Shown one piece after another: positions 1 to 24,315 of a DNA stretch of 24,315 nt. The notes under the pieces are model-generated. The model was not told the origin of the DNA, ran no database searches, and was given only the letters and a program-made list of their open reading frames with translations. Source of the DNA: a virus; the IMG/VR virus record IMGVR_UViG_3300022689_000069, positions 1 through 24,315 of that record. One strand, given 5' to 3'. Position 1 is the first letter of the stretch, and every line of letters starts with the position of its first letter. Position numbers and translations under genes: made by a program.

Positions 1-99
1 CTCCTTCCGTTTTCACTATATGGGGGTGTGTTTATATATGGCTTATATATAGGGGCCTTATATATAGGGGCCTTCTATACACCTCCCTTATCCCCGGCT
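1..99 (+). repeat. Left copy of perfect 99-bp inverted terminal repeat
   Basis: Bases 1-99 are the exact reverse complement of 24217-24315; identity stops at base 100 against 24216. The repeat holds a 15-bp tandem duplication (42-71) and alternates AT-only steps with G4 or C4 runs. The stop codon of the last leftward gene (88-90) lies inside it. The length fits a real terminal repeat, but it also equals a common odd assembly k-mer, so the true repeat could extend further out. Confidence 0.97.
42..71 (+). repeat. Two tandem 15-bp units inside the terminal repeat
   Basis: The unit CTTATATATAGGGGC occurs at 42-56 and again at 57-71, followed by a degenerate start of a third unit. The mirror copy is at 24245-24274. 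It could be a protein-binding iteron or simply a slippage duplication. Confidence 0.85.
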
Positions 100-258
100 A
101 TTTACAATTGAATAAAGTATTGATAGCTGTCTCATTATCTTCTTTCTCCTGGATTGGTATATAAGGCTTTTATTATGTTCGCATAAAGTGTCTATCTCCT
201 GAAATTGCTTCTCCTTGAATAGCATTGCTTTGTATAGTTCTTGATATGGATCAAACAT
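88..258 (-). CDS. Small hypothetical protein, 56 aa, last gene of leftward operon
   Basis: An open frame from ATG at 258 to TAA at 88-90 encodes a charged, helical-looking 56-residue protein starting MFDPYQELYK. It has no signal peptide or membrane segment. A purine-rich stretch precedes the start. Its last codons and stop fall inside the 99-bp terminal repeat, so its C-terminus is set by that repeat. I do not recognise a family. Together with the 50-residue gene upstream it forms a short pair that probably shares the promoter near 516-546. Confidence 0.5.
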   Translation of the reverse strand: MFDPYQELYKAMLFKEKQFQEIDTLCEHNKSLIYQSRRKKIMRQLSILYSIVNSRG

Positions 259-289
259 TGTTTATCTCTTTTGATTTCATTAATAAAGA

Positions 290-315
290 AATAGCAAGTC
301 TCCAGGCCTGCTATT
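290..315 (-). terminator. Weak inverted repeat between two small genes
   Basis: AATAGCA (290-296) can pair with TGCTATT (309-315). On the minus strand it is followed by a T-rich but interrupted tract. It might act as a weak terminator or processing stem between the 50-residue and 56-residue genes. Confidence 0.25.
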
Positions 316-331
316 ATTATGATGGATAGTA

Positions 332-484
332 TCATTTATTATCGTTTATGGCTTTGTGGTAGCCTAAAAAAAACATTTGTATAGCATCTCTTTTTTCAGT
401 GTCGCTCATGTACTTCCATGAACTAGGGAATACTTCACTTTTCAAATATTCCCTAATCTCTTGTTTTGTTGGAACTTCCTTCAT
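332..484 (-). CDS. Small hypothetical protein, 50 aa
   Basis: The start was chosen at ATG 484 (MKEVPTKQEIREYL), not the upstream ATG at 526, because the extra 15 residues look like untranslated leader and would overlap the promoter at 516-546. The product is charged and helical, with no membrane segment or known motif. It is the first gene of a two-gene unit downstream of the tail chaperone. Function unknown. Confidence 0.5.
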   Translation of the reverse strand: MKEVPTKQEIREYLKSEVFPSSWKYMSDTEKRDAIQMFFLGYHKAINDNK

Positions 485-515
485 GTTATTATTTGTTTTA
501 GTTTGTATGATGAGA

Positions 516-546
516 TAAAGGTAACACATTGTTTAGTTAAAGTCAA
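516..546 (-). promoter_or_regulatory. Bacteroidota-type promoter for the two end genes
   Basis: Read on the minus strand, a TTG (546-544) is followed after 20 bases by TACCTTTA (523-516), a one-mismatch fit to the Bacteroidota TTTG...TAnnTTTG promoter. It lies in the gap between the tail chaperone stop (559) and the 50-residue gene (484), so the two terminal small genes can be transcribed separately from the tail operon. Confidence 0.5.
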
Positions 547-558
547 CAAAAAGGATGT

Positions 559-849
559 TTATTTCTTTGCCTTTCTTTCTGCTTCCCTTAATTTCTGGCT
601 TTTAGTGTTGATATAAGCTTGATATCTGTGGATGTATTGCATGGTATTGACAAAATGCCAGTCCAGGTTGTAGACTTGTTCGTGCGTGTAATTATACTGC
701 TTTGCGAAGCTGTCTAAGGTGAGGAGGTCTGCAAACTGGTTAAGATGCTCGCCGCCTGCCGCTGTATAGATACGAGATGCTTCCGGGTCCTTCGGGATGC
801 TCTCAAACCTATTCGTCCAAATCTTTTGGAGCCTGACAACCTCTTCAAA
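559..849 (-). CDS. Frame -1 extension of the tail assembly chaperone (T part of a G/GT pair)
   Basis: After the T run the -1 frame is open for 96 residues to TAA at 559-561. It contains a natural-looking sequence, including GGEHLNQFADLLTLDSFAKQ, an aromatic stretch and a basic coiled tail ending REAERKAKK. It has no start codon or ribosome site of its own, so it must be reached by a -1 shift or be part of a single frame. The fused product would be 268 residues: 172 before the slip, one re-read Phe codon, then 95. It fills what would otherwise be a gap downstream of 714. Confidence 0.75.
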   Translation of the reverse strand, partial: FEEVVRLQKIWTNRFESIPKDPEASRIYTAAGGEHLNQFADLLTLDSFAKQYNYTHEQVYNLDWHFVNTMQYIHRYQAYINTKSQKLREAERKAKK

Positions 850-1364
850 AAAAAAATACCGTAAGGTAAAGCTTCATAGGCTTTCATTTGATATACCCAA
901 GGCTTAATCTCCTCAACTCTATCCCCTATAAACTTGCCATCGTAAGCAGGTTGTAAATAGATGGCTAATAGTTCCGGGATCTTGTTCACCTTTGGCATGT
1001 CAGAGGTAATTACATTTAGTGCCTGCACCTTTGCGCCAAACGCTTCTAGCTCTAGTTTTTTTGGGGGCTTTATGTACTTTCCATTTAGAGTAACCTGCTT
1101 TGGCCTTTTCAGCTTATCCCATTTCGGAGGATCAAAGACAAAGCTGAGCACCTGGAATAATGGCTCCCAAAGGTTTGTAGTAGACTGCTCCAAATCCTCG
1201 TATTTCTGGCCTGTAAAAGCGGAGAGGAGGCCGACCAAATCGGACCTTTTCCCGGACCACTTTTCTTCCATCTCTGTAATATGCTTTACTGTGACTTCGG
1301 ACCAATTCTCCGGCACTGTGGCAGTGATTGTTTTTTGTTTTAGCTTAAACTTAAATGTTATCAT
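714..1364 (-). CDS. Tail assembly chaperone candidate, zero-frame product
   Basis: The start ATG overlaps the tape measure stop as ATGA (1361-1364), so translation is coupled. Residues 1-172 form a consistent protein whose beginning (MITFKFKLKQKT) and layout resemble tail assembly chaperones of Bacteroidota phages. In the zero frame the protein then runs through a run of ten T (856-847) into about 44 basic, low-complexity residues and stops at 714-716. That tail looks like an out-of-frame read. The -1 frame continues with a convincing protein sequence to 559. This matches the lambda G/GT pattern of a short and a long product. A homopolymer miscall of an intact 268-residue gene would look the same. 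In most siphoviruses this gene precedes the tape measure gene; here it follows it. Confidence 0.7.
   Translation of the reverse strand: MITFKFKLKQKTITATVPENWSEVTVKHITEMEEKWSGKRSDLVGLLSAFTGQKYEDLEQSTTNLWEPLFQVLSFVFDPPKWDKLKRPKQVTLNGKYIKPPKKLELEAFGAKVQALNVITSDMPKVNKIPELLAIYLQPAYDGKFIGDRVEEIKPWVYQMKAYEALPYGIFFLKRLSGSKRFGRIGLRASRRTRKHLVSIQRQAASILTSLQTSSP
816..830 (-). other. Small hairpin downstream of the slippery run
   Basis: TCCAAA and TTTGGA form a perfect six-pair stem with a three-base loop. It lies 16 bases after the T run in the direction of translation, longer than the usual 5-9 base spacer, so its role as a frameshift stimulator is uncertain. Confidence 0.4.
847..856 (-). other. T10 slippery run, candidate -1 ribosomal frameshift site
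   Basis: On the minus strand the sequence is GGTA followed by ten T and then GAAGAG. TTTTTTT is a known functional -1 slippery heptamer. The zero frame reads ATT TTT TTT TTG; slipping back one base gives TTT GAA GAG and enters the long open frame. Sixteen bases further on is a hairpin of six pairs (816-830). One missing T in the assembly would equally explain the break. Confidence 0.65.
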
Positions 1365-2971
1365 AGATTGGCTTTATCTTCAATAGCCATTACTTTTGTC
1401 ATTTCTGTCCTAAGATCCGGGATAGGTAGAACTATTCTTTCCTGGCTAAGTGCTTGCTGAAGTTGTGAAAGCTGCTGTTCCGTGCTTGTCTGCGTTGGCA
1501 CTACTCCACCATCAGCAAACTTCAGACCTCCACCAAGCTCATTTAAGTAGCTGGCAATTTCCTTCACTCCTGGTATGTCCATTGACCTCTTATTGATAAT
1601 GGCCTCGCCCCCTTCAGCTTCAATGATAACACCTCCCTGACTATGGGAAGGTCCTTTAATTATTCCACCATCCTCAAAGATTCCCGAAATGAGGCTACCA
1701 ACTAAGCCAACACCCTGACCAATGCCGGGAATAAATCCTAATATTTTGGTTACTGTCTGAAGAACTGACTTAAATATATCCTTTCCTTTAACCTTACCCG
1801 TGAAAATGTCAAGCAATCCCTTTGCAGCATCGGAAGCTATATTGTATCCATCTGCCAGCCCTTTGGTTGTTTCTATTGCCTCCTTGTTTTTATTTATAGC
1901 AGCATCCCCCGCCTTTACTTCTATCTCAGCAAGCTGTGTCGAAAACTCCAGTTCCTTTCTTTTTAAATCAACTAATTCCGTGCCTTGCTCTATTTCTTTA
2001 TCTGCCTGCCTCCTTAATTGATTTAAAATCCTTTCAAGTCCCCTTGCAGTGTCCTGCCTTCTGGTCTGAACGTTTATCAATTCTGCCTGGGCTTGCGCCT
2101 CCTCATCTAAAGCCTGTTTGTTTGATTTGGCAAGCTTGTTTGATTCCTCAATAATGAATAAGCGGTTTGCCGCTATCTTTTCCTCTTTGGCTGCTAATTC
2201 ATCAAGGAGGTCTATTGCTTGCTGTTGAAATTCTGCCCTTTGTGTGGCTGTAAACTCCTCTTCCTGCCTGGCTTTCCTTCTTAAAGTTGATATTTGTAAT
2301 TCCCTTTTTGCCCTTTCAACTAAAAATTGCCTTTCAAGTCTGTCTGTTTCAGCCTCCAGGTCTGCTAATTCCTTGCTTACTTTTATATCCTCCTCTACCT
2401 CCTCAACAAAGCCCTTCACTGCTTCTTTCGCATTATTGAAAGCTTTAACGGTGTTTCCTACAGGGTCCTGAAAAAACTCTTTCACATTATCCCAGGCGTT
2501 TTTCAACGTGTCAAGGGGATTAATTAAGAAGTTTTGTATTGCTTCACCCACATCCCCGAAGATGTCTAGAAGGTTTTGCCATACACTATCCGCAACTCTA
2601 AGTACTTTATTTAGCCTGTTCTGACCCTCTTCAGTACGCTTGAATGATTGTATTAAAGATCCAATTAAAACAACTATTGCGCCGATCCCTGTCGCCGCTA
2701 AAGCAATTTTGAAAGTTCTTAAAGCTTTGGCGCTGGACAAAATACCTTTAGTTGTACTCAAAAGACCTCCGGTCATTTTATCAAGCTGTGCGGTTAATCC
2801 AGAGGTAGCCTTCCCGGTGTCCTCGGTTACCTTTTTGTAATCCTTCTGTTCATCTTTGGCCTCCTTTGTTTCCTTTTGATTTTCATCTAGGGATTTGTTG
2901 AGTTTGTCTATTGACTTAGTGGCCTGATCACCTTCAACAACAATCTCAATGGTTCTTGTCTTATCTGCCAT
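1361..2971 (-). CDS. Tail tape measure protein, 536 aa
   Basis: Sets tail length and helps DNA delivery in siphoviruses. Visible features are a charged N-terminal coiled region (about 15-50), one strongly hydrophobic segment (about 88-108), and long coiled-coil stretches rich in Glu, Gln, Lys and Arg (about 190-360). A Gly-rich C-terminal part follows, with GGIIKGPSHSQGGV and EGGEAIIN, typical of the C-terminus of tape measure proteins. Its start overlaps the upstream stop by one base (TAATG), and its stop overlaps the chaperone start. The short length implies a short tail, of the order of 80 nm if about 0.15 nm per residue holds. No peptidoglycan hydrolase domain is visible in it. Confidence 0.85.
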   Translation of the reverse strand: MADKTRTIEIVVEGDQATKSIDKLNKSLDENQKETKEAKDEQKDYKKVTEDTGKATSGLTAQLDKMTGGLLSTTKGILSSAKALRTFKIALAATGIGAIVVLIGSLIQSFKRTEEGQNRLNKVLRVADSVWQNLLDIFGDVGEAIQNFLINPLDTLKNAWDNVKEFFQDPVGNTVKAFNNAKEAVKGFVEEVEEDIKVSKELADLEAETDRLERQFLVERAKRELQISTLRRKARQEEEFTATQRAEFQQQAIDLLDELAAKEEKIAANRLFIIEESNKLAKSNKQALDEEAQAQAELINVQTRRQDTARGLERILNQLRRQADKEIEQGTELVDLKRKELEFSTQLAEIEVKAGDAAINKNKEAIETTKGLADGYNIASDAAKGLLDIFTGKVKGKDIFKSVLQTVTKILGFIPGIGQGVGLVGSLISGIFEDGGIIKGPSHSQGGVIIEAEGGEAIINKRSMDIPGVKEIASYLNELGGGLKFADGGVVPTQTSTEQQLSQLQQALSQERIVLPIPDLRTEMTKVMAIEDKANL

Positions 2972-5070
2972 TATATCTTATTTAATCTGATTAATTCCAC
3001 TAAGCAAGGTTTATTGACTTTCCACTGCTCAATTTTATTTATGTAATATAAGCCGTTCAAGCGCTGGCTAAATACGGGCTTTGTCATATCAATTTGATAG
3101 ATTTCAAGTGCGCTAAACTCCGCCCAAACACGTATGATCTTAGGTGTTTTCAAAGCATCAAAAAGGCTTGAATAATAGCTGTTGTAAATGCTTTCCATTG
3201 TCAGATTCACAAACTCAGCTTCGAACATAGTTGAGGAGGTTGGGCTACTATCCGGGAATCCATTTACATTAATGTCACAGCCTGACGTGTTAGATTGATT
3301 TATTTTTACCAACCTGTCTTTAATGTTATTTTGTGTAAATTTCACAATATAGCAAGGTCCATTGCTTACGGTAGTGCCGGAATAGCTAAAATAAAAAGTG
3401 CCTGCAACTTCGCTTGTCTTTGTGCTGATCCTGGCTATAGTAGTACCTGTTATTATGTAGTCGCCGGGATCGAATTTCGCTGCCTCACCAAAGGTAAATG
3501 AAGCGGATCCATTGCTTACACTAAAATTATCTTCAGTGCTTACATCAAGGCCGTATGCAGGTATTTGCACCCGATCCGGGTTTTGATCCGCTGTAAGGTC
3601 GTCAAGTATAAGGGACCTTTCAGAAGCGCTAAAAGGAAACGAAAGAACATTGCCAACGGGAGGCGCTGTTAAATCTCCATCTATCTCAATTTCATAGTCA
3701 GGATCAAATTGTAAATTATCTTCATTGTCATATACAAGCTTTGATCTTTGAAAATAGAGATTTCTTTCAATTACTTCCTTGACCTCAATAATGTTCTGAT
3801 CTATGTTCTGAGGTGTATCTGCCAGTAGGCTATTTATTGTCTTAAAAGAAATAGTTGTATTTGTCTTTGAGGGATAGGATAAGGCACAAAAATACTTCAG
3901 GAAGAAAAGAAAAAATTCCCTCTGGCTGATGTTTGGCAAGTATTTATTGACCTTTATTGTGCCTATGCTTGTAGTAATCTCCTCAGCTTTTACGGTAGTA
4001 TTGCTGTCGACTGTTAATGAGCCGAACTCATTATCATCATTCTCCTCTGGCGTGCTTACCCAAAATTCTACATAGTCAACACTTGATAAGAAGCCTTCAT
4101 AACTGAAGGTCCCTGTAACCGTTCCAACGCTGTCAAATTGTGCCTGGTCTAATACAGTGCCTGCCGCATTTTTCCTTATCTCTATCAAGCAAGGTACTTT
4201 TATAATGTCAAGTTCATAATTGAAGTCTATGCGGTAGTTGGCCCCAAAGTCAAATTCGATCCTATCGTTAGCATTATCAAATAAATTATTAGCGTCACTT
4301 ATTGCAGTCTCAAAAGGTATCTTCTGTTCTGATCCATCAGTATTACCATCATGAGAAAAATCTGAAGTTTTGCCTATCTCACATATAATAGGATTGTTTT
4401 GATCTATTCCTACCGTATCATAAACAGGGCAGTATATAGCCAATTCATCATAGTCATCCAATGAAGAAAGTCCACTACCATCATACACAAAGCCGGCCTG
4501 TTCAACAATTTCCTGAAATAGGGTTTTAGCATAGAAGAAAAAGCCGCAAGCTTTAATGTCTATGTTATCAATGAGCTGCTTTCTGTTTCCAAAAGGGATT
4601 TCTAACACTTCTTGCTGGTTAAATCCGAGGTGCTTTGCATACACAACGCCACTGGTATCGCTGACCTTCCCTGCTATTGTTGTCTTATCAAAATCATAAT
4701 CATATGCAGATAGATCAAGGTTTCTTATTGATTCGTTAGGAATGGAATTAAACAAGCTGAAGTTTTCAAAATAGATAACTATTTCAATAGCCTGACTATT
4801 CCAGGTCAATACATTAATATTGCCATTTGGAATCAAATTAATGTTTCCAATCAAGACGGAGCATGATATGAAAGTATTAGAGGCTTTTACATTGCTTTCC
4901 ATGCTTAAAAGCTCCCTGTTGTGATAAGTGTACGGCACTGAAAAAGTCCTACTATAATCGGAGGCCCTTCTATTAAAATTGAATAAGTCAAAAAGTTGTT
5001 TGGTTACAAAAAAGTTTTCTTCTGTTCCAGGGAAAAGATCCAATCCAACGCCGTTAATTATAATGTCCAT
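2971..5070 (-). CDS. Large tail protein (distal tail / tail tip candidate), 699 aa
   Basis: The largest protein of the leftward block, encoded directly before the tape measure gene. It is beta-rich with few charged helices. It starts MDIIINGVGLDLFPGTEENF and has an early FNRRASDYSRTFSVPYT region like the N-terminal domain of proteins I associate with tail tips of Bacteroidota phages. There is no signal peptide or coiled coil. Start and stop each overlap a neighbour by one base, so it belongs to the tail assembly operon. A role in the tail tip or baseplate hub is inferred from position and composition; no catalytic motif was recognised. Confidence 0.55.
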   Translation of the reverse strand: MDIIINGVGLDLFPGTEENFFVTKQLFDLFNFNRRASDYSRTFSVPYTYHNRELLSMESNVKASNTFISCSVLIGNINLIPNGNINVLTWNSQAIEIVIYFENFSLFNSIPNESIRNLDLSAYDYDFDKTTIAGKVSDTSGVVYAKHLGFNQQEVLEIPFGNRKQLIDNIDIKACGFFFYAKTLFQEIVEQAGFVYDGSGLSSLDDYDELAIYCPVYDTVGIDQNNPIICEIGKTSDFSHDGNTDGSEQKIPFETAISDANNLFDNANDRIEFDFGANYRIDFNYELDIIKVPCLIEIRKNAAGTVLDQAQFDSVGTVTGTFSYEGFLSSVDYVEFWVSTPEENDDNEFGSLTVDSNTTVKAEEITTSIGTIKVNKYLPNISQREFFLFFLKYFCALSYPSKTNTTISFKTINSLLADTPQNIDQNIIEVKEVIERNLYFQRSKLVYDNEDNLQFDPDYEIEIDGDLTAPPVGNVLSFPFSASERSLILDDLTADQNPDRVQIPAYGLDVSTEDNFSVSNGSASFTFGEAAKFDPGDYIITGTTIARISTKTSEVAGTFYFSYSGTTVSNGPCYIVKFTQNNIKDRLVKINQSNTSGCDINVNGFPDSSPTSSTMFEAEFVNLTMESIYNSYYSSLFDALKTPKIIRVWAEFSALEIYQIDMTKPVFSQRLNGLYYINKIEQWKVNKPCLVELIRLNKI

Positions 5071-6212
5071 CAGTATTGCTTTGCATTATAAAAATCAAAG
5101 TTTTTTGGAAACTCTATATTGATAGTGAACTCAAAACCTTGCTTTCCTGAAGTGTATGAAGTTGTGAAGTTGTCAACCGCAATCACACCTACCGCACTGC
5201 CTTTATCCTTTTCTAGCCATACCTGGAGGTTTGAAGCTCTTTTGATATAGTGGAGGCTTTGCAATTCATTTTGATTTAACTGAAAAGCCTTCAATACCAT
5301 CCTTTGGTAATTATCCCCAACGCCCCGGCCTTTGGTCCTGTCTATGCTATCAATGTAATCATCAACATATACGCTGTATGGTGTCCCAGGCTCCGTTGTT
5401 TCTATTACCGACTGCTCAATGTCAAATAGCCACTGCTCCAAGCCTCCAAACTGACCCAACCAGGATAGCATAATAGGCTGCTTACATTCTGGCCTTAGCA
5501 AAAACTCCTTTGTTTCTGATAGGTCGTTGGTATCCTCAATTTTGAAGTTTGTGTAGTATGCCCCAGCGTCAGCGGGATAGGTAAGCGAATAGTTTTTAAT
5601 TGTGTTTGATGATGGCAGCAACAAAGTTGGATTTGTGGTGCTTAAAACGGATCTATTAACATCCAAAACGTTTATCTCAGCGCTTACGCTTGTAGGGCTG
5701 TTCTGATTGTAGATGCTAAAAAACGTGGTCCACTTATCCCATATAGAAAGCTGGTCGAAGTTAGTCATATACTTCCCAAGCTCAGAAGCATTAAGCCCTG
5801 CGGCCACTGTGTCTTTCAAAGCAAATTGCCACATATTAGCACCCCTACTATCTAGTAGCTGTTTTTCTGCCAGTATAGCTAAGTATGTCACTGTGGTGCT
5901 TCCTGCATCGCTGCCGCCTTCCCAGGTGCTTGAATATGCTAAAGTAAATTGTAAGCTTGAAAGGTTGTTTCTTGAGAGGTAGCTTCTGAACAAATCCCCC
6001 AGCTCTACAACCATTACACCGTTACTGTCCGGGAAATAATAAAGCTCTAAGTCGTCAAGCTCCGCAATTACAACGGTAAGCATGTAGTTATCCTTCCCGG
6101 TCATCACACTTTCGGTAAATTCAAACCTGATCTGTGAGGTTGCTATCGCATCACAATTAAAGGGAGGGCTTCCGCCTGTCTCCCTGGGGTTACCTGTCAA
6201 ACTAAGAGCCAC
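5070..6212 (-). CDS. Tail-associated structural protein, 380 aa
   Basis: It starts at GTG 6212, inside the end of the tail terminator candidate gene, which gives an 11-base overlap; no ATG is available near the start. The protein is beta-rich, with NCDAIATSQIRFEF near the N-terminus and aromatic-rich strands throughout. Its place between the tail terminator candidate and the large tail-tip protein suggests a distal tail or adaptor role. I do not recognise a named family. Confidence 0.5.
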   Translation of the reverse strand: MALSLTGNPRETGGSPPFNCDAIATSQIRFEFTESVMTGKDNYMLTVVIAELDDLELYYFPDSNGVMVVELGDLFRSYLSRNNLSSLQFTLAYSSTWEGGSDAGSTTVTYLAILAEKQLLDSRGANMWQFALKDTVAAGLNASELGKYMTNFDQLSIWDKWTTFFSIYNQNSPTSVSAEINVLDVNRSVLSTTNPTLLLPSSNTIKNYSLTYPADAGAYYTNFKIEDTNDLSETKEFLLRPECKQPIMLSWLGQFGGLEQWLFDIEQSVIETTEPGTPYSVYVDDYIDSIDRTKGRGVGDNYQRMVLKAFQLNQNELQSLHYIKRASNLQVWLEKDKGSAVGVIAVDNFTTSYTSGKQGFEFTINIEFPKNFDFYNAKQY

Positions 6213-6672
6213 AATAGTAATTATTACGTGAAACTGGAAAATCGCACTGAAAGTCTACACCCGAAAGGACGGCATCAAAGCGTTTGGTTGCTGCAAGCCT
6301 GTTCAGTGTATATTCATCGATTGGCGCAACGTCATTGATAACACTGCTTTGCATCATCTTATCAAAAAATTCATCTGCTTTGCTTTCTGCCTGATCTACA
6401 AGGGTGTCAATTGTTGTCTGCTTGTCGTCAAATTCAGTATTTTTATACAGGAATAAAATGTTTGTGGGTATGACTTTGTAAACATAGTTTCCCGCAAGGC
6501 TTTTATTACCTATACTTTCGCCTCTGTCGTAGTGAATAACTATACAGTTAGTCGAGCAGTCTATTTTGTTCAATTGCATATTAGCCTCATATGAGGAGGC
6601 CCGTAAAAATGTGCAATCTGAAATGGTGGCCACTACGGCGGCAATCTCATCATTTAAGCTTTTAAAACTCAT
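6202..6672 (-). CDS. Tail terminator / completion protein candidate, 156 aa
   Basis: Mixed alpha/beta protein with an N-terminal helix (MSFKSLNDEIAAVVATI) and an anionic middle region. Its size and position directly after a gp10-like gene match the tail terminator (lambda gpU-like) slot in siphovirus gene orders. ATGA overlap with the upstream gene (6669-6672). The assignment rests on gene order and length more than on motifs. Confidence 0.45.
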   Translation of the reverse strand: MSFKSLNDEIAAVVATISDCTFLRASSYEANMQLNKIDCSTNCIVIHYDRGESIGNKSLAGNYVYKVIPTNILFLYKNTEFDDKQTTIDTLVDQAESKADEFFDKMMQSSVINDVAPIDEYTLNRLAATKRFDAVLSGVDFQCDFPVSRNNYYCGS

Positions 6673-7142
6673 ACCTTAATGTCTTCTAGTATCCTGTCTG
6701 CCAGTTCATCACCCCTGTAATCTAATCTATTATCTATAATTTTATCAATATCAATGGGTTCCCTTTTGCCCTGGTAAATATCAGTCCCTTTCTCTGCAAT
6801 TTTTCTGCTTATTAAATAGGCTGTTCTCTTGTAATTAGTTTCTGATTTGGAAGTGAAGCGTCCTAACGCATCCCTTAACTGTAGGCCCTTGTCTTTTATC
6901 CATTGTATTATTACATCTTGCGGAGGGTATTTTCCTGGAGGTCTTCCCGGCCTTCTGCCTCTAAATAAGCCTATCCATTGGGAGTAATAAGGGATTGATA
7001 AAAAGAACTTTCTCGGCCTCCTACCTATTCTCATATTGCGCTCAAAGTTCCCAGAAGCCTTCAAGCCTTTTTGCTCGTATTCATCTATAATGTCCTGCCT
7101 TATGTCTTCGAGGATCAACACTATAGATTGGTAAACTTTCAT
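6669..7142 (-). CDS. HK97 gp10-like neck / tail completion protein, 157 aa
   Basis: Basic protein with an N-terminal helix, a Pro/Arg/Gly-rich centre (RGRRPGRPPGKYPP), then PQDVIIQWIKDKGL, and a C-terminal YLISRKIAEKGTD stretch. The pairing of WI..KGL with AY.I...I...GT is what I associate with gp10-like neck proteins of Bacteroidota phages. It follows the large terminase with a 22-base gap and is translationally coupled to the next gene. Confidence 0.55.
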   Translation of the reverse strand: MKVYQSIVLILEDIRQDIIDEYEQKGLKASGNFERNMRIGRRPRKFFLSIPYYSQWIGLFRGRRPGRPPGKYPPQDVIIQWIKDKGLQLRDALGRFTSKSETNYKRTAYLISRKIAEKGTDIYQGKREPIDIDKIIDNRLDYRGDELADRILEDIKV

Positions 7143-7164
7143 ATTATAAATGTAAAAAAGAAAA

Positions 7165-8334
7165 CTATAAAAAACTAAACTTTGCTTTTGTCATGTCTGA
7201 AAGCGCATACCGGGCAGCATCAATAGCGTGATTATAAACATCAATAGGCTTTTTATCTATTAATTTATCTTCCTTATCTTTTTGCCATTTGTATGTACGT
7301 AATTCCTTAATCAAATTAATGCTGCTTTTGGTAACGTATAAATTATATGACTTCATGTTAATGATTCCTTTAATCAAACTATCAGGTCCCTTCTTTGCGC
7401 CCTTAACTCTTACCCCTCTGTTTCTTAGCTCCTGTATTTGCAGGGGGCTGGCGCTATCGGCAATAGCCTTCGTACCGTGAATGCGTTCATGGCAGATATC
7501 CGCAAGGATGTTTGATGTAATTTCAGGAGCATACAAATGCTCATGCAAATAAAGGTCAGTTCCTTTTTTCCTTATCTCTATTAGAGTTGTAGGATCTACC
7601 CAACCAAAGTCAATACCAAACCTGGAAGCTTCATAGTCAATGGGTAGGCTGTCAATCAATTTAAAGTCTTTAAATATTAGGCCGCTTAACTCCGCCCAGT
7701 TTCCTTTCAGATAAATGTTTCTCAAGTCCATATCTTTAATTTTTAAAATTTCCTTCAATTGTGCTTCGCTTAAAAATGGGTTATCGTGAACAGTGCTTAT
7801 GTCCAGGCTTACATCTTTATCTTTTATCATCCGTTCCTCTTCTATCTTTTCCTTTATCCAGCTTTGAGGGTCGTTTGGGTTGTAATCCAGAAAACAAAAG
7901 TGAGAGCATCTGAAAATTAGTTGATTAAAAACCTTTTCGGGTACTGCTGTGGCTTCGTTTATCCAGAAGATACTATTTTGAGGACCATGTATTTTACTTT
8001 CATCATCAGCGCTAAAAAAGGATATTGTCCTGTTCTGCCTTTTAAATTCGTGAGTAGTTTTCACGTGGTTCACGTAAGGCATAAAGCCCTCATGGCTTAG
8101 TATCATTTCAAAGTCCTTTAATACAGTTCGGCGGAGGGCTGGGAATGATTCCCTTAATACAAAAAAGTCCCCCCTTGGTAAATTGATATTACCTATCTTA
8201 CCATACATAAGCCAACGTACTGCCATTTGAGTCAGGGAGAAACTTTTAGTTGATCGAGTGCCTCCCCTCAAACAGTTGACACGTTTGATGTTATTCACAA
8301 CGTCACGATAGACGCGTGTGGTCTTATACTTCAT
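7165..8334 (-). CDS. terL: Terminase large subunit, 389 aa
   Basis: The packaging motor ATPase and headful or cos nuclease that translocates phage DNA into the procapsid. The N-terminal ATPase part has a divergent Walker A, GGTRSTKS (24-31, with K30 and S31), and Walker B SIFWINEAT (121-129, with E127). The C-terminal RNase H-like nuclease has GIDFGW (D242), ADSASP (D293) and AIDAARYAL (D372), the three acidic positions expected. The length fits the compact terminase class (Terminase_3/PBSX-like). Its start overlaps the previous small gene by 11 bases. It is on the opposite strand from the portal and capsid genes, which is unusual. Confidence 0.95.
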   Translation of the reverse strand: MKYKTTRVYRDVVNNIKRVNCLRGGTRSTKSFSLTQMAVRWLMYGKIGNINLPRGDFFVLRESFPALRRTVLKDFEMILSHEGFMPYVNHVKTTHEFKRQNRTISFFSADDESKIHGPQNSIFWINEATAVPEKVFNQLIFRCSHFCFLDYNPNDPQSWIKEKIEEERMIKDKDVSLDISTVHDNPFLSEAQLKEILKIKDMDLRNIYLKGNWAELSGLIFKDFKLIDSLPIDYEASRFGIDFGWVDPTTLIEIRKKGTDLYLHEHLYAPEITSNILADICHERIHGTKAIADSASPLQIQELRNRGVRVKGAKKGPDSLIKGIINMKSYNLYVTKSSINLIKELRTYKWQKDKEDKLIDKKPIDVYNHAIDAARYALSDMTKAKFSFL

Positions 8335-8578
8335 TTATTTGCTGTTCATATTTTTCCATTAATAAATCTACTTCTCCAAGTTTTTCAGATTGGTGCTCAC
8401 TGAAAGTGCCTGTTGTTTCACTGTTGCAAAAATACCAATACATCAACTTCATTTCCTCGTGCTTTTCTTTGAGTTGGAATTCTGCGTAAGACTCCATTAA
8501 TTTAATTATTGACTCATAGCTAATTAAACCATTTTCATTTTCTGTTCTATATTTTTTTAAAAATTCTTCAGCGTTCAT
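8324..8578 (-). CDS. Small conserved phage protein, 84 aa, upstream of terminase
   Basis: Acidic, helical protein (MNAEEFLKKYRTENENGLIS), with no signal or membrane segment. It overlaps the terminase start by 11 bases, which ties it to packaging by position only. It resembles small hypothetical proteins common in Bacteroidota phages; a small terminase role is possible but no DNA-binding motif is seen. Confidence 0.7.
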   Translation of the reverse strand: MNAEEFLKKYRTENENGLISYESIIKLMESYAEFQLKEKHEEMKLMYWYFCNSETTGTFSEHQSEKLGEVDLLMEKYEQQINEV

Positions 8579-8616
8579 CTTGTTTAGTTTTTGATTTTTT
8601 GTTGTAGTGTGTAATG

Positions 8617-8844: not shown

Positions 8845-8846
8845 TT

Positions 8847-9119: not shown

Positions 9120-9140
9120 GTTTATAGCTTTAGTATTTTG

Positions 9141-9380: not shown

Positions 9381-9395
9381 AATATTTAAGTAAAG

Positions 9396-14422: not shown

Positions 14423-14452
14423 AATTTGTTTATTTGTTTTAAATAGAATGGT

Positions 14453-14504: not shown

Positions 14505-14512
14505 TTATTCCC

Positions 14513-16410: not shown

Positions 16411-16412
16411 TT

Positions 16413-16994: not shown

Positions 16995-17230
16995 TGGCAG
17001 AAACGATAAAAGAAAAAAAAGTCTATAGCAAAAACTATTATGTTAAGGACTTTGGCGCTATCGGCGGGATGCCCGTAAGCACCGAAATTGACAAGCAGTT
17101 AAACGAGCAGCTAAAAGATGTCAAAGCGAAAGCATCGGACTATCATGTGACTGAAAAGGAATATGATTTAATGGTTGAAAAGTCAAAGCTGCAAATTGGC
17201 ATCAAACAAGTATCTGCCAAGAAAAAATAA
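16994..17230 (+). CDS. Small hypothetical structural-region protein, 78 aa
   Basis: Lys- and Glu-rich, with an N-terminal KKVYSKNYYVKDFGAIGG and a basic C-terminus (QVSAKKK). Overlaps the preceding stop by one base and ends just before the portal. Could be a head accessory or a chaperone for a neighbour; no motif. Confidence 0.6.
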   Translation: MAETIKEKKVYSKNYYVKDFGAIGGMPVSTEIDKQLNEQLKDVKAKASDYHVTEKEYDLMVEKSKLQIGIKQVSAKKK

Positions 17231-17233
17231 ACG

Positions 17234-18418
17234 GTGTTTTATTTACACACAAACAAGGTAATTCAAAAAAGGATTGACACTTCAATTGACTATCAATATT
17301 CTATAGTCAAATATGGGGTGTCAAATCTTTATCCTCAGCTCATGGAAGAGCTATATAAGCGCTCTCCCTTGACTAAGGCAGCCATTGAAGTGTTGTCAGA
17401 GTTCTACTCCGGCCAGGGGTGGACCAATAACGGTGATGAAATGATCAACCGCTATGGACAGAATTTCAATGAAATGCTTCGCCTATGCTCTGAGGACATA
17501 GCCAAGTTTTACGGTTTTGCTGTTCACATTAATTACAATGGACTAGGCCAAGGGGTAGAGCTTCAGCATATACCTTTTGAGTATGTAAGATTGGCGCACC
17601 CCAATGAGAAGGGCGTTATCAATTCCGTTTACGTTTCTTCCAACTGGGAGGAAGACAGCTATAAGGAAAAGAATTACAAAGGCTTGAAGCCAGTGAAATA
17701 CCCGATGTTCAATCCTCGAACAGCGCAAGCGGAGGTATTGACAGGGAGGCGAACGGGCCAGGTATTATATTTCACCCCTAAAATGTGGGCGTATCCCCTG
17801 GCAACCTTTGACAGCATTCGGGATGCAGTGCAGACTGATGCAGAAATTCAGACCTTTATGCTGGCCAATATTCAAAATGGCTTTCATGGATCTACAATAA
17901 TTAAATACCCTGGAGGCTTTGAAAATCAGGATGAAGAAAACAGCGTAAGGGATAAGATTAAAGAGCTTGTAGGTGCTGGCAATGCTAACAGCACATTGGT
18001 AGCTACAACTCCAGAGGACTTTACAGGATCTTTGGTTGAGGGTATTCCAGCCCCAAACAATGACAAGCTTTTTGAGCTTACTGGCAAAAGGATAAGAGAT
18101 ATTATTTTGCAAAACTATGCTATTCCCGGTCCGTTGATGGGAGTCAACCCGGAAGGCGGGATATTTACCCAGCAGGCCATCAGGGATTCATACATTTACA
18201 TGAATGCCAGGACTTCCAACAAGCGGCGCTTAATAGCTCGAATGTTCAAACCTATTGGTGAGCTATTTGGCTATGATCTGGGAGAGATACAGGAGCAGGC
18301 TTTTGAGATACCTGGCTTGAACATGCCAAAGCTAAACGGTGACCCTGATCAATTGGAGGATGATACGGAGGAGCAAGAACCGGAAGCAGAGGCAAAACTA
18401 AGGGCGCTTTATGGCTGA
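17234..18418 (+). CDS. Portal protein, 394 aa
   Basis: Forms the dodecameric channel at the head vertex. It starts at GTG 17234 with no nearby ATG. Visible features are an N-terminal SIVKYGVSNLYPQLMEELYKRS, then SPLTKAAIEVLSEFYSGQGW, an alpha/beta core with IPFEYVRLAHPNEKGVI, the clip and stem region around TFDSIRDAVQTDAEIQTFMLANI, then PAPNNDKLFELTGKRIRDIILQNYAIPGPLMG, with a crown-like acidic C-terminus (DDTEEQEPEAEAK). The length fits compact portal proteins. The motif of a short loop then IPGPLMGVNPEGG is typical of portal C-terminal halves. It lies downstream of the capsid gene, the reverse of the usual order. Confidence 0.85.
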   Translation: MFYLHTNKVIQKRIDTSIDYQYSIVKYGVSNLYPQLMEELYKRSPLTKAAIEVLSEFYSGQGWTNNGDEMINRYGQNFNEMLRLCSEDIAKFYGFAVHINYNGLGQGVELQHIPFEYVRLAHPNEKGVINSVYVSSNWEEDSYKEKNYKGLKPVKYPMFNPRTAQAEVLTGRRTGQVLYFTPKMWAYPLATFDSIRDAVQTDAEIQTFMLANIQNGFHGSTIIKYPGGFENQDEENSVRDKIKELVGAGNANSTLVATTPEDFTGSLVEGIPAPNNDKLFELTGKRIRDIILQNYAIPGPLMGVNPEGGIFTQQAIRDSYIYMNARTSNKRRLIARMFKPIGELFGYDLGEIQEQAFEIPGLNMPKLNGDPDQLEDDTEEQEPEAEAKLRALYG

Positions 18419-18944
18419 ACAAACAATCATAGCGAAGGCAGACATTACCGCATTTTGGGACTTTTCGACAAATGTAGATGACGAAAAAGTCAATGCTGCC
18501 ATATTGCGAGCACAGCAAACAGATTTAGAAAGCCTCTTAGGCGCACCGCTATACTATTCATTTATTGAAGATTACAACGGGAGCACGTTTGACACTACAG
18601 AGTTTCAAAGCCTATATGATGGGGGCTCATATACATACTTAGGTAACTCTATATATTTTAGAGGAATTAAAAACTATCTTTGTGTTTCTGCATATATACA
18701 CCTGGTTGACATTGCAAGAATCAACGTAGTAAGAGGTGGTCAGGTGTATAAGCTATCAGAGGAGAGCGAGTACCTTGAGGACTTCCAGGTTCGTACCGAC
18801 ACAAGAAAAGCAAAGGCAGACCTTGTACGATTAGAGCGTGACACAATGCAGTTCCTTGAGGATAATATTAGTGATTATCCCCTTTATAAGTATCGGGATT
18901 ACACAGAAAGAAAAACAGCATATAATTTCTTTAAAATAAAATGA
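18411..18944 (+). CDS. Head-tail connector candidate, DUF6712-like, 177 aa
   Basis: Overlaps the portal end by 8 bases. Helical protein: ADITAFWDFSTNVDDEKVNAAILRAQQTDLESLLGAPLYY matches the pattern of portal-adjacent adaptor proteins, in which the first residues and ...AQ..DL..LLG..LY form a helical bundle. It probably docks under the portal to complete the head. Family named from memory of this pattern. Confidence 0.65.
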   Translation: MAEQTIIAKADITAFWDFSTNVDDEKVNAAILRAQQTDLESLLGAPLYYSFIEDYNGSTFDTTEFQSLYDGGSYTYLGNSIYFRGIKNYLCVSAYIHLVDIARINVVRGGQVYKLSEESEYLEDFQVRTDTRKAKADLVRLERDTMQFLEDNISDYPLYKYRDYTERKTAYNFFKIK

Positions 18945-19552
18945 GTATTTGCCCATTCACCATAGGAGCTAATTATAATTGTGATGCACCGCTTCAGCCG
19001 GGCCTCCTTAATTATATACTGCTCATCAATAAAAGCGACATTAGCAATGTAGCTATTTCATCGGGCGTAGCTACCAGCATAACACTAAAACCGGGAAAGG
19101 TAGCTTACAAGTTTGAAGGGTTAAGAGGTTCTTTTGATGCTAGCTATGAACAGAGGAATAGCGGCAATTTTGCAGTAGGCTATAACCATATCATTGAAAT
19201 GACGGTATTCGACATTTCAAGCGATCAAAAGATGAACATTCAGAAGATGGCACTTAATGAAATGGTAGCCATTACTTTCTTAATCAACTCACCAGGCAAT
19301 AGCAATACTTTCTTTGAGATATATGGTTTAGGTGCTGGACTGGAAAGCTCTCAAATAACTAGAGTGAGCAGAGATAACGAATACATGGGAGCATTCAGAG
19401 TTACCTTGCAAACGTCTGAGTCACTTATAGAAACTGCTATGCCTGTAACTTACTTTAATACTGATTATGATACAAGCCTTGCAGATTTACAGGCATTATT
19501 GACAAGTACTGCGCCAACGGCTTTTCCTTACACTTTCCCAATAACATTTTAA
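18941..19552 (+). CDS. Structural protein, paralogue 2 (tail tube or decoration candidate), 203 aa
   Basis: Paralogue of the 16413-16994 product, with nearly the same blocks in the same order (NCDAPLQPG, VFDISS, QKMALN, VAITF, GNSNTFFEIYG, TRVSRDNEYMGAFRVTLQTS, TDYDTSLADLQALL). The C-terminus has an added Pro/Phe-rich tail (TAFPYTFPITF). An ATGA overlap with the connector ties it to that module. One paralogue may form the tail tube and the other a decoration or a minor structural ring; the sequence does not tell which. Confidence 0.7.
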   Translation: MSICPFTIGANYNCDAPLQPGLLNYILLINKSDISNVAISSGVATSITLKPGKVAYKFEGLRGSFDASYEQRNSGNFAVGYNHIIEMTVFDISSDQKMNIQKMALNEMVAITFLINSPGNSNTFFEIYGLGAGLESSQITRVSRDNEYMGAFRVTLQTSESLIETAMPVTYFNTDYDTSLADLQALLTSTAPTAFPYTFPITF

Positions 19553-19556
19553 TATC

Positions 19557-20999
19557 ATGGCAAGAAATACATCGAGCATACCAGCAAAGACAACAGGTAG
19601 AACATATACAGCGGCAGAATTTGAGGCCTTAAGAGGCTTTGTTGATAGCCCTTCTCAGTCATTAGGAGCATTTACAGGTTCTTTAATTGTAATTGATGGC
19701 AGTGGATATTTTACAGAACTCGGAAGTGGGTCAGGTAATATTTCCGTAACGTTTTCAACATCGGGTCACAATAATGAAAACGTAAAAAGACTCACAAAAA
19801 CATTTAGTGGCTCAGAGTCACTTACAATCACCAAACCTTCAGGAATTAACCTTAATCTGATTGCACCTGCTGGTTTTACAAACGGCGACGACTTATCGGC
19901 AGGAAAATATAAGATTTCGTTTGTGTATGAAAGTGGAGAGATTACGGTAATTATCAGCGATGCAGTTACAGAGATTTTAGATATATCACCTTTGACTACC
20001 CCTACTGGTTTGTCAGCAAGAATAACACTATCTAGCAGCATTGTACTTGAATACGATAGCATAGATGCAAATGCAGACAATGTTTTAATTCAAAGAAGTA
20101 CCACTTCAGGGAGTGGTTTTTCTACAATTGCAACTATTGACAGTGCATTTACTGAGTATGAAGATACCACAGTAGTTGATGGGACTACATATTACTATAG
20201 AATAATAGCAACTGCGATAACTGGTTATTTGGATTCAAGCCCAAGTACTGAAGCCTCAAAAACTGCCCTAGACAACAAAGTATTTTATACAACTTTTGAC
20301 GATAATGATGTTGCGTTTAATACAGGCGGACTTGAGACAGTTAATGATGTTTGGAATAGTAATACTTTCACGCAAAGCGTTGAAGCAAACAGGCCTGGTC
20401 TTTCATTAAATTTAGCAGGCAATGGTATTGATTTTGGTACTTTTGTGCGTGCAAATGTAGATTACGTAAAATCGGCTTCTGCCTTTCAGTCTACTATAAG
20501 ATCAGAGTTTAGTATAGTATTTCTGTTACATCCAAATGACGGTATTCCTGCTAATTTTTTAAGGATTATGGGTGCTTATGATGATAGTACATTACCTTCA
20601 GCAAGCAATGCACTGGAAATAGCTTTAACCACTGAGGGTAAAATAAGGTCACTTTATAAGTCAGGGGGTGTTGGCAATTTGACAGAGACTGCCAGCGCTG
20701 TTTTTACTGACGGCTTCCCGAGTGTATTTATAGTTGTAGGAATAACTTACTCCGAGTCTGGTAATAAAATTTATATTGACGGCTCAGAAGTAGCATTAGA
20801 TGGGTCTTTTAACGGAAATATGGCAGGTGTGACAATGGTAGATTATACAAGCACAACTACGCTTGCATTAGGAGGTGCTAATGAACCCAGTGGCTTAGAT
20901 ATTGGATGTTATGACGGGTTTTTAAGTAATGTGGCTATGATAAGCAGAAACCTTACGGCTCAAGAAATGGATGATATAGCTAAACAATTTGGCAAATGA
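19557..20999 (+). CDS. Tail fibre / receptor-binding candidate with fibronectin III and lectin-like domains, 480 aa
   Basis: Residues 1-140 are a beta-rich virion attachment region. About 144-236 is a fibronectin type III domain (PTGLSARIT..IVLEYDSIDANADNVLIQRS...TTYYYRIIAT). About 242-475 is a concanavalin/LamG-like sandwich (FYTTFDDNDVAFN, FSIVFLLHPND, IYIDGSEVALD, LALGGANEPSG, FLSNVAMISRNLTAQEM). Such combinations bind cell-surface glycans or proteins. It starts 4 bases after the paralogue-2 stop. Substrate unknown. Confidence 0.75.
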   Translation: MARNTSSIPAKTTGRTYTAAEFEALRGFVDSPSQSLGAFTGSLIVIDGSGYFTELGSGSGNISVTFSTSGHNNENVKRLTKTFSGSESLTITKPSGINLNLIAPAGFTNGDDLSAGKYKISFVYESGEITVIISDAVTEILDISPLTTPTGLSARITLSSSIVLEYDSIDANADNVLIQRSTTSGSGFSTIATIDSAFTEYEDTTVVDGTTYYYRIIATAITGYLDSSPSTEASKTALDNKVFYTTFDDNDVAFNTGGLETVNDVWNSNTFTQSVEANRPGLSLNLAGNGIDFGTFVRANVDYVKSASAFQSTIRSEFSIVFLLHPNDGIPANFLRIMGAYDDSTLPSASNALEIALTTEGKIRSLYKSGGVGNLTETASAVFTDGFPSVFIVVGITYSESGNKIYIDGSEVALDGSFNGNMAGVTMVDYTSTTTLALGGANEPSGLDIGCYDGFLSNVAMISRNLTAQEMDDIAKQFGK

Positions 21000-22888
21000 T
21001 TGATCCTTTTATATTCAGTCCTGTCTCTGGCGGTATCACTTTAATTGCAGATCAAGCAGCAGTAGACAATTTATCTTTTGAAGGTAATAAAACCTATTTA
21101 TTTAAAAGGGGTGAATATTTTAGGTTTACTAAATCATTTTCTGATTTATCAGATGTAGTAATTGGTGCTTACGGCTCAGGCAATAATCCTGTTTTAACAG
21201 GAGGACAAGACATATCCTCTGAGTCTTGGTCGGATGAAGGTTCCGGGATTTATTCACTTGTAATAAATGAACCAAAATGGATTGAAATAGTTGGCCAAAA
21301 TAGTAAGTATGTAGAAACAGATTGGATACAAATACAATCAATTCCGTCAAGCACACAAATAGGCATAAATGCACTTGATGTATCTAGTTTCAGTAATATT
21401 GTTGGTAGTAAATGGGTTTGTAGATCAGAGCCTTGGACTACGGGATTAGAGTACGAAGTAACTGCTTACTCAAATGGAACAATTACACTGGATAGAGATC
21501 ATACAGCAGAAGTGTACGAGCCAAAAACGACAAGGTATTTTAAGTTACTTGGCAAGCTAGAATATATCCAGAATGATTTTGAATGGGCATATGAAGGGGG
21601 TTCTTTGTATGTGAAACTACCTAGCGCACCAAGCAACTATGAGATAGTTAATTACATCGATAATGTAGGTTTAAACATATCTGGAGGTAATGGAAATCGA
21701 ATTTCCAATCTTGACTTCAACTATTATTTTGGTCATGGAATCCTTGCGTCCAACTCAAACAATATCTTAATACAAGGGGTAAAAACCGATAGGATTAGAC
21801 ATATAGGTGTTACAGTTAATGATTGCATTAATCTTTCAATTAAAAATTCTAATGTCTCGAATTGTGGAGTAAGAGGAATAAGCGGAAGTGGCGAAAATGC
21901 ATATATTTTAAATTCAACAATTAATAACATCGGCAATTCAGAAAATATATGCTATGTAAGACAAAGTTACATTGATGCGACAAGTTTAGGTATAGGTATT
22001 TCTCTAAATAGCTCAAGCAGTGAACACATGAATATGATAGTAGATAATTGCCATGTTTACAACATTGCATATGTGCCTGTCATAAACGCTTCGAAAGGAA
22101 GTAAGGTAAGATATTGTATTCTTCATGACTATTTAACAAAATTCATGGATGGAGGGGCAGTATATTCTTATTCAGGGGAATGGTTAGGATTTGGAAAAGA
22201 CCTTGAAGTATCAAACTGCATTATTTACAACGCAATTGGCAATCAAGAAGGTATAGATTTTGGAGATATAAAAGTAGGGATCTATTTTGATAATAGGGTA
22301 GCTAATTCAGTAGCAAGGAATAATGTCATATACAATGTAGATAATCGAGGAGATTTGTTTTCCAACGGAGACACAGAAAACAATACCTATGAAGAGAATT
22401 TGGTCATCACAAAATCAGTTGCATCTATGTATAATGACTTTTATCCAGCCTCAGCTCCTTTGTTTGGTAATAACGGCTATGTGAATAGAAACAATATATA
22501 TGTAGGTAGTAGTCCTGACACGATTTTACACTCAAACGATTACGCAACTGACAATATTTTAGAGAACGATTACAACTATTATATTAATCCATTTACAACA
22601 AATGTGTATTTAAAAAATGAAGTTACGGGAAACTTTGCAGGACTTCAAGCGGCCTATAATGATGATCAAAACAGTGTATCAAAAACAAACTGGCTTACAT
22701 ATGTAGATGAGGCTACAGCAGAAACTCAAATACTCAAGGTAATTAATGAAGGTGATGATGATATGAATTATGTGGTTCCGTCAGGCTACGAAGATAAAGA
22801 TGGTGTAGACCGTAGCGGTCAAACACTCACAGTACCGTCACGCTTCGATGGTCGTCCAGGAATGGTATTATTTAAAACAAGTGATTAA
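20996..22888 (+). CDS. Right-handed beta-helix tail protein, candidate polysaccharide depolymerase, 630 aa
   Basis: Overlaps the previous stop as ATGA. A small N-terminal anchor is followed by strands around GAYGSGNNPVLTGG and, from about 220 to 480, a run of short repeated strand-turn units (NRISNLDF, NNILIQGVKTDRIRHIG, NLSIKNSNVSNCG, NAYILNSTINNIG, RYCILHDYL, LEVSNCIIYNAI) typical of parallel beta-helix lyases or glycosidases of the pectate-lyase type. Such tailspikes cut capsular or exopolysaccharide. A catalytic residue set cannot be named from sequence alone. Confidence 0.75.
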   Translation: MIDPFIFSPVSGGITLIADQAAVDNLSFEGNKTYLFKRGEYFRFTKSFSDLSDVVIGAYGSGNNPVLTGGQDISSESWSDEGSGIYSLVINEPKWIEIVGQNSKYVETDWIQIQSIPSSTQIGINALDVSSFSNIVGSKWVCRSEPWTTGLEYEVTAYSNGTITLDRDHTAEVYEPKTTRYFKLLGKLEYIQNDFEWAYEGGSLYVKLPSAPSNYEIVNYIDNVGLNISGGNGNRISNLDFNYYFGHGILASNSNNILIQGVKTDRIRHIGVTVNDCINLSIKNSNVSNCGVRGISGSGENAYILNSTINNIGNSENICYVRQSYIDATSLGIGISLNSSSSEHMNMIVDNCHVYNIAYVPVINASKGSKVRYCILHDYLTKFMDGGAVYSYSGEWLGFGKDLEVSNCIIYNAIGNQEGIDFGDIKVGIYFDNRVANSVARNNVIYNVDNRGDLFSNGDTENNTYEENLVITKSVASMYNDFYPASAPLFGNNGYVNRNNIYVGSSPDTILHSNDYATDNILENDYNYYINPFTTNVYLKNEVTGNFAGLQAAYNDDQNSVSKTNWLTYVDEATAETQILKVINEGDDDMNYVVPSGYEDKDGVDRSGQTLTVPSRFDGRPGMVLFKTSD

Positions 22889-22891
22889 GCA

Positions 22892-23428
22892 ATGAGAAGG
22901 TATATAATATTTTTATTATTTCTACCCCACTTGTGTTATTCTCAGCATTGGATAGACAGCGTTACGGTAGACCACTTTTCAGTTCAAAAAGAAGGTAGTT
23001 GGGTGCATATGAGTGGAGGCGGATCTTATCCCGAAACATGGAAGCCAGGGCCTCATTCAATGACATATAGAACTATTTGCTATCAATTAGAAGTGTTCAC
23101 AGAGAAGTCCGATCATCACGGGGCTTATATTGTCAACATAAACGGCGTTGATATTGATACCATTAATGTGAAAAAAGCAACACCGGAAAAAGATCTGAGG
23201 ACATGGGTAGCTATATGGCCAACACAGGAAAATAGAACTATTAATTTAAGGCCATACGGAGGGACTTTCGTGATAGATAAAATTGTCAGGTGGGTTAGTG
23301 GTAATCCTGATTACATACCACCAGGCACAGAGCCATGTGATTCCATTTACATACCAAAAATAGACACTGTTTTTTTGACTCCGAAATATTATTTTTTACC
23401 GGATACTTTAGAAATAATTACTCAATAG
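22892..23428 (+). CDS. Secreted hypothetical protein with signal peptide, 178 aa
   Basis: Starts with a classical signal: MRRY, then IIFLLFLPHLC, with likely cleavage after CYS before QHW. The mature part is beta-rich and aromatic (MSGGGSYPETWKPGPHSMTYRTICYQLEV) with a Pro-rich C-terminus. A signal peptide is unusual for a virion protein, so it may act in the envelope during infection or lysis, or be a surface-modifying moron-like product. No lysozyme or amidase motif was found. Confidence 0.7.
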   Translation: MRRYIIFLLFLPHLCYSQHWIDSVTVDHFSVQKEGSWVHMSGGGSYPETWKPGPHSMTYRTICYQLEVFTEKSDHHGAYIVNINGVDIDTINVKKATPEKDLRTWVAIWPTQENRTINLRPYGGTFVIDKIVRWVSGNPDYIPPGTEPCDSIYIPKIDTVFLTPKYYFLPDTLEIITQ

Positions 23429-23658
23429 TGGCTGTATTATTCTTAGATCATAAGCTAATGATTAACTACCCGGATGAAATTAAGCTATTAAAGGACCGTA
23501 TTAATATTACTGAAACGATCGATTTAGATTTGGGCATTATAAAGGTTATATTTGAGGATGAAAGGTTCAAAGAAAACGAGTTTGTTCTAGCAAGGCTAAA
23601 GAAGGTTTGCAAGCGTAATAGAATAGAGCTGACCACAAACGAAATATTAAGAACATGA
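23428..23658 (+). CDS. Small hypothetical protein, 76 aa, GTG start
   Basis: GTG overlaps the previous stop by one base (TAGTGG), a clear coupling. The protein has a DLGIIKVIFEDE strand and a basic C-terminal helix (RLKKVCKRNRIELTTNEIL). No membrane segment. It overlaps the next gene by 4 bases. Function unknown. Confidence 0.6.
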   Translation: MAVLFLDHKLMINYPDEIKLLKDRINITETIDLDLGIIKVIFEDERFKENEFVLARLKKVCKRNRIELTTNEILRT

Positions 23659-24065
23659 CCTTAGAGAATTACTCACATATAGCAGGCGTAGCGGGTATAA
23701 TATCAATAGTAATCACCTTTATACTAGGTTATAGAAAGAAGCTATTAATGACAGGCTTCAATACTTTTAAGGATAATTATAATTTATTCAGGCAGGAAAT
23801 AAGGTCTGAAATGATTGATTTTAAGACCACTATAAGAGACTATATAAACCAGAATGATGAAAGGCATACGAGAACTCTAGAGCGTGTCACACAGATATTT
23901 GATGACACTCAGAAGGCTATCTGTAAACAAACCAATGCGTGCAAGATGGTGCAGGTTAGGAAGGAAGGCGCTTCTAAAAGAGATTCTGAATGGAAGGAAA
24001 GAATAGAGAAAGAAGTTAAAGATATATATAATGATGTTGAACTAATAAAAGATAAATTAAAATGA
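23655..24065 (+). CDS. Membrane-anchored coiled-coil protein, spanin- or lysis-related candidate, 136 aa
   Basis: One N-terminal hydrophobic segment (about 9-25: IAGVAGIISIVITFILGY) followed by a long charged helix. This is the shape of an inner-membrane i-spanin or of a membrane-tethered accessory. Its place just before the holin candidate favours a lysis role. No partner outer-membrane lipoprotein was found nearby. Confidence 0.5.
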   Translation: MTLENYSHIAGVAGIISIVITFILGYRKKLLMTGFNTFKDNYNLFRQEIRSEMIDFKTTIRDYINQNDERHTRTLERVTQIFDDTQKAICKQTNACKMVQVRKEGASKRDSEWKERIEKEVKDIYNDVELIKDKLK

Positions 24066-24241
24066 AAAATCCAGTTACAACAATTTCAGGTATCGTATTA
24101 TTGCTCATCTCAGCACTTACTCTATTTGGTGTCATTACCCAGGAGCAGGCGGGATCAATAGAGCAGTATGCTGGCATGATAGTAGAAGCAGTTATAGGTT
24201 TAATCGCAGTTTTCAAAGCCGGGGATAAGGGAGGTGTATAG
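24062..24241 (+). CDS. Small two-segment membrane protein, holin candidate, 59 aa
   Basis: An open frame from ATG 24062 (ATGA overlap with the previous stop) to TAG 24239-24241 encodes MKNPVTTISGIVLLLISALT and onward. Two hydrophobic segments (about 7-25 and 36-51) are linked by a short polar turn, and the C-terminus is basic (FKAGDKGGV), as in class II holins. The last eight codons and the stop are inside the terminal inverted repeat. It would form membrane pores for lysis timing, but no endolysin gene accompanies it. Confidence 0.6.
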   Translation: MKNPVTTISGIVLLLISALTLFGVITQEQAGSIEQYAGMIVEAVIGLIAVFKAGDKGGV

Positions 24242-24315
24242 AAGGCCCCTATATATAAGGCCCCTATATATAAGCCATATATAAACACACCCCCATATAG
24301 TGAAAACGGAAGGAG
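24217..24315 (-). repeat. Right copy of perfect 99-bp inverted terminal repeat
   Basis: Exact reverse complement of bases 1-99. The last eight codons and the stop of the holin-like gene (stop at 24239-24241) are inside this copy, so here the repeat is partly coding. The left copy is used in a different frame by an unrelated small gene. Confidence 0.97.

Follow-up and report, generated by a model that had tools for sequence, protein, structure and literature searches.

Inverted repeats at the ends of an uncultivated tailed-phage contig: a length set by the assembler and arms that appear to be kept identical

The DNA analysed here (the window) is a whole IMG/VR record of 24,315 b, IMGVR_UViG_3300022689_000069, and belongs to an uncultivated tailed phage with relatives among the Bacteroidota phages. 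It ends in a perfect 99-bp inverted repeat. The length of this repeat is an assembly effect, whereas the repeat itself, judged from the related sequences described below, is biological and not an accident of one contig. Such a repeat is a lasting part of how genomes in these phages join or end.

The end repeat and the meaning of its length

Direct comparison confirmed that the left arm at the tail end of the map (1-99, plus strand) is the exact reverse complement of the right arm at the lysis end (24217-24315, minus strand), with no mismatch and with the first mismatch at base 100, as the initial annotation had described. A perfect match of 99 bp cannot be chance. Both copies were located in the window and there was no third. 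Among approximately 160 contigs of relatives the next-longest end-to-end inverted match, after the window (99 bp) and one relative (71 bp), was 14 bp, and no standout end inverted repeat was seen in the other contigs scanned. The ends are inverted, not direct, which leaves the contig without closure by a direct repeat; if joined they would form a palindrome. Folding of the 99-mer was not above that of shuffled sequences, and the arm had no exact match among the IMG/VR records searched. Each arm starts within the 3' end of an ORF, and the two outermost ORFs enter the repeat in different frames. The AAGGAG motif at the right edge was considered as the ribosome site of a next gene and rejected, a Shine-Dalgarno-like motif preceding only one of the 39 ORFs checked.

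It had been pointed out before that 99 is a common assembler k-mer and that the contig could have ended at a longer, collapsed inverted repeat. This proposal is well supported by the literature, by the present collection and by simulation. CheckV traces a clustering of terminal repeats at 55, 77 and 99 bp to the k-mer overlaps that assemblers leave (PMC8116208). According to COBRA, metaSPAdes and MEGAHIT break contigs at repeats, leaving overlaps of exactly maxK, which was 99 in COBRA's simulation (PMC10914622). Microvirus contigs in our collection carry direct repeats of 99, 121, 123 and 127 bp. Several types of molecule were passed through a de Bruijn simulation with k = 99. The linear molecules had true repeats of 99, 100, 150 and 500 bp or hairpin ends, and the circles had either a palindrome or an inverted repeat together with a second segment; each gave a single contig with inverted ends of exactly 99 bp. 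Since every simulated topology yielded the same value, the arm is at least 99 bp long, and this figure is uninformative on topology. Moreover, because the length was set by the assembler, bases 1 and 24315 have no standing as demonstrated termini, and the arms may run outward. Given that no endolysin could be recognised, further genes are likely to lie beyond the repeat.

In these respects the window resembles the contigs with inverted terminal repeats in IMG/VR and CheckV, being a metagenomic phage contig with identical inverted ends of assembler k-mer length. It differs in that its repeat is shown to be biological by a relative and by evidence at the codon level.

Gene content and layout of the window

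The genes are arranged in two operons transcribed outward. The minus-strand operon (88-14422) runs toward the left arm and contains early/DNA genes, the large terminase subunit (TerL), tail genes and the tape measure; a YopX-like protein, a C5 methylase and a Holliday-junction-resolvase-like protein (10037-10411, minus strand; phrog_244, E 4e-7) are also encoded there. The plus-strand operon (14534-24241), which runs toward the right arm, encodes protease, major capsid protein (MCP), portal, head completion proteins, a beta-helix protein and a holin-like ORF. Between them lies a short intergenic region (14423-14533), and the sign of the GC skew changes at approximately 14-15 kb. The outermost ORF of the minus-strand operon (88-258, 56 aa), for which no significant family match was found, has its last codons and its stop within the left arm. 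At the other end, the last 8 codons of a holin-like ORF of 59 aa (24062-24241, plus strand; weak PHROG holin match, E 0.009) are within the right arm.

Profile matches were obtained for the proteins of a Caudoviricetes-type terminase packaging set: TerL with its nuclease domain (7165-8334, minus strand; Pfam Terminase_3 and Terminase_3C), protease, portal and tape measure (1361-2971, minus strand; PHROG tape measure). The nuclease domain of TerL is of the RNase H type and has been kept. The MCP matches virion structural families and is putatively of the HK97 type. All ORFs longer than 370 aa encode virion, packaging or beta-helix proteins, except the unassigned ORF 19557-20999 in the structural operon. 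Two paralogous structural proteins (16413-16994 and 18941-19552) flank the portal gene, and both match one single gene in the relatives.

Pfam and/or PHROG scans covering nearly all predicted ORFs gave no match to a terminal-protein polymerase or a protelomerase, which bears out what the initial annotation had stated. Likewise, no integrase, DNA polymerase, transposase or endolysin was recognised among the ORFs scanned, and the window contained no recombinase and no convincing candidate for the small terminase subunit (TerS).

The closest cultured matches are distant (TerL at most 34%, portal 29% and MCP 25% identical), and searches with TerL or portal found no close prophages in bacterial genomes. 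In the comparison with the Bacteroides phages BT24/BT638P4, the portal (29%), TerL (30%), the tape measure and one tail protein of the window matched BT24. BT24 differs in that its record is circular, 38 kb long and co-directional in gene order, and encodes a polymerase, helicases and an amidase of its own; no end inverted repeat was found in it. The MCP matched that of hankyphage p00 at 25%, the only p00 match, and Mu-like DDE transposase A/B of the hankyphage type had no match among the ORFs scanned.

As a separate observation, syntenic phage-like blocks were seen in four Bacteroidota genomes (G218:C1 ~2139-2163 kb, G103:C23 24-52 kb, G367:C6 775-803 kb and G383:C6 376-403 kb). These blocks are co-directional, ~24-28 kb long, and contain TerS, TerL, tail, protease, MCP and portal genes and a muramidase or lysozyme gene. 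Relative to the G218 copy, MCP is 85-91% and portal 81-85% identical. The cellular neighbours are partly shared, with a UbiE-like methyltransferase upstream in three of the four and a YCF48-like protein downstream in all four, and no obvious replication or integrase genes were seen inside. They are candidates for a gene-transfer-agent-like or domesticated element.

A same-place repeat in a relative and an arm in step with the tape-measure gene

Relatives were found by TerL and portal profile searches of IMG/VR. The best of them, c267 (IMGVR_UViG_3300021378_000267; 16,828 b, joined from L143 and L296, which are identical where they overlap), comes from a different metagenome and has 12 proteins in common with the window (portal 41%, TerL 39% and MCP 35% identical). 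Its last 71 bp are the exact reverse complement of its bases 113-183, which makes a perfect 71-bp inverted repeat. One arm is the 3' end of the tape-measure gene (the last 71 bp), the other the 3' end of a DUF5675 lysis-cassette gene (113-183). This is the same place as in the window, where the outermost tail gene and the outermost lysis gene have their 3' ends. The protease-portal and TerL-tail blocks are co-directional in c267, whereas in the window they point apart; in contig 3300037851_000739 they are again co-directional, in the succession opposite to that of c267. Despite this difference in inner gene order, transcription of the outermost units is directed outward to the arms in both the window and c267.

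A conserved block at the lysis-end arm is shared by six contigs, all of which stop 12-107 bp outward, inside the arm; in one relative this arm could be read to 219 bp. The arm depths of marine contigs (124, 127 and 132) are near the 123-bp direct repeats of neighbouring data sets, a suggestive link to k. The marine arm had no match in cultured phages. A motif, TAAGGGAGRTKTATAG, is common to the window arm and a marine arm, which is only suggestive, as 2 of 300 shuffles were equally good. The otherwise identical marine arms of L148 (1-48) and L143 (1-12) split abruptly ~171 bp into the repeat.

In all six contigs the lysis-end arm, though it lies behind another gene, encodes AQSNSAVTVTSSTL followed by a stop in the frame of the tape measure. 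This peptide corresponds to the C-terminal 14 residues of the tape-measure protein, the gene of which is 16 kb away from the arm; it is the native C-terminus of the protein and aligns with the C-terminus of the window's own tape measure. Pairwise comparison of five divergent sequences gave 49 codon differences in the tape-measure frame, 49 of them synonymous and none non-synonymous, whereas in the remaining frames non-synonymous changes made up 49 of 51 and 51 of 51 differences. These are pairwise counts from sequences with common ancestry, not independent events; the frames nevertheless contrast completely. The synonymous changes include the serine switch between AGC/AGT and TCA. Since all 49 differences are synonymous in the tape-measure frame, the arms appear to be kept identical. 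On the simplest account, the tape-measure gene of every strain would contain the second copy, which is under selection there, and both copies would be held identical. This concerted evolution was seen only in the marine relatives, whose proteins are ~40% identical to those of the window, and the window arms themselves have no close relatives.

Taken with the same-place repeat of c267, the arm locked to the tape measure bears on the technical explanation that the initial annotation had offered for the repeat: this explanation holds for the length, but to call it technical overlooks that the repeat as such is biological. It also makes it very improbable that the repeat is a pure artefact, one copy of an arm having been put at the wrong end by a chimeric fold-back or a misassembly. 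Artefacts are indeed enriched among contigs with inverted ends: CheckV rated only 33% of them as high quality (PMC8116208), direct and inverted ends occur together in 87 vOTUs (PMC9610469), and a related contig, L189, shows a local 50-bp fold-back at its end (5368-5417 and 5688-5737), an artefact of a type unlike the window. However, the pair recurs at these gene ends in the independent assembly of a 40%-identical relative, and the arm co-evolves at the codon level in six contigs. Moreover, fold-back chimeras are local, whereas the arms here are 17-24 kb apart.

Joint or ends of the genome

With some reserve, we favour the reading that these are genuine inverted repeats where the outward operons meet, with the arms on either side of a joint in a genome that is circular or concatemeric. 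The pair would sit where the tail operon meets the lysis end of the structural operon, with arms in the window of at least 99 bp and perhaps longer, and the contig would halt at exactly 99 because an assembler with k = 99 is unable to exit the shared 99-mer. The identity of the arms would be maintained by gene conversion or recombination. The molecule itself would be circular or concatemeric and cut by the terminase, and the joint would in the window probably hold the missing endolysin. A joint is favoured because TerL has a nuclease domain, neither a protein-primed polymerase nor a protelomerase was found, and the window has no recognisable endolysin; its resolvase-like protein was also counted toward it. 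In the relatives a DUF5675 gene, a lysozyme or an amidase gene is found beside the holin-like gene, and none of these was recognised in the window; we infer that DUF5675 is an endolysin. Some observations speak against a joint. No contig was seen to continue outward beyond an arm, and true ends would also account for this. In addition, the tail arm of c267 stops at 71 bp, which is no usual k and resembles a drop of coverage near a real end, and c267 seems nearly complete at 16.8 kb.

A less probable but serious alternative is a linear genome that truly ends in the arms, as hairpins or with protein caps. The arms would then exceed 99 bp, have been collapsed to k by the assembler, and stay identical because one end is copied from the other. 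A simulated true repeat of at least 99 bp likewise gives exactly 99, each of the six marine contigs extending to the lysis end stops no more than 107 bp from a single block, and transcription runs outward to both arms in two genomes of different inner order. Homogenised termini typically have strictly identical arms, which was counted for linear ends. On the other hand, the window yielded neither a protein-primed DNA polymerase nor a protelomerase, the nuclease domain of TerL fits the cutting of concatemers, and the phage would need to live without a recognisable endolysin.

Known systems with such ends match the window in part. The protein-primed linear phages phi29 (Salasmaviridae) and PRD1 (Tectiviridae) also carry inverted repeats at their map ends, but no family-B DNA polymerase was found in the window, which has a terminase with a nuclease domain and head and tail genes of the siphovirus type. 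For ends of the phi29/PRD1 type the repeat was confirmed in the window, yet the end position equals the assembler k. The hairpin-telomere phage-plasmids N15, phiKO2 and PY54 are, like the window, tailed phages with a terminase and mirrored map ends. In contrast to them, no protelomerase was found in the window, and the arms are at least 99 bp long (at the lysis end, up to 219 bp in a relative). The telomere site of N15 is 56 bp, which the arms here exceed.

Inverted repeats around unseen DNA are also the anatomy of invertible switches, and the outer part of the arm differs between the otherwise identical marine strains L143 and L148. Arms that flank an invertible, phase-variable cassette beyond the contig, flipped by a recombinase, are nevertheless hardly to be expected: the window has no recombinase, no cassette was seen, and the genes in whose tails the arms end encode virion and lysis proteins rather than variable proteins.

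Inverted ends on metagenomic phage contigs are usually read either as proof of completeness or as an artefact. The window represents a third state, an artefactual length on a repeat that is real and conserved and appears to be homogenised, so that the record should be called neither a complete genome nor a misassembly. Synonymous drift in a copied gene end provides a simple test of the reality of repeats collapsed by an assembler. If the linear reading applied, these could be small tailed phages (~17-24 kb) that form a lineage whose linear genomes end in long terminal inverted repeats under continual homogenisation. An ordinary terminase would package these genomes and host enzymes would replicate them, with neither a protein-primed polymerase nor a protelomerase involved; we regard such a lineage as rather unlikely. 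In it, the phage's own Holliday-junction resolvase might serve as the resolver of the ends. More generally, the finding points to an uncultivated phage lineage with an unexplained genome junction or unexplained ends.
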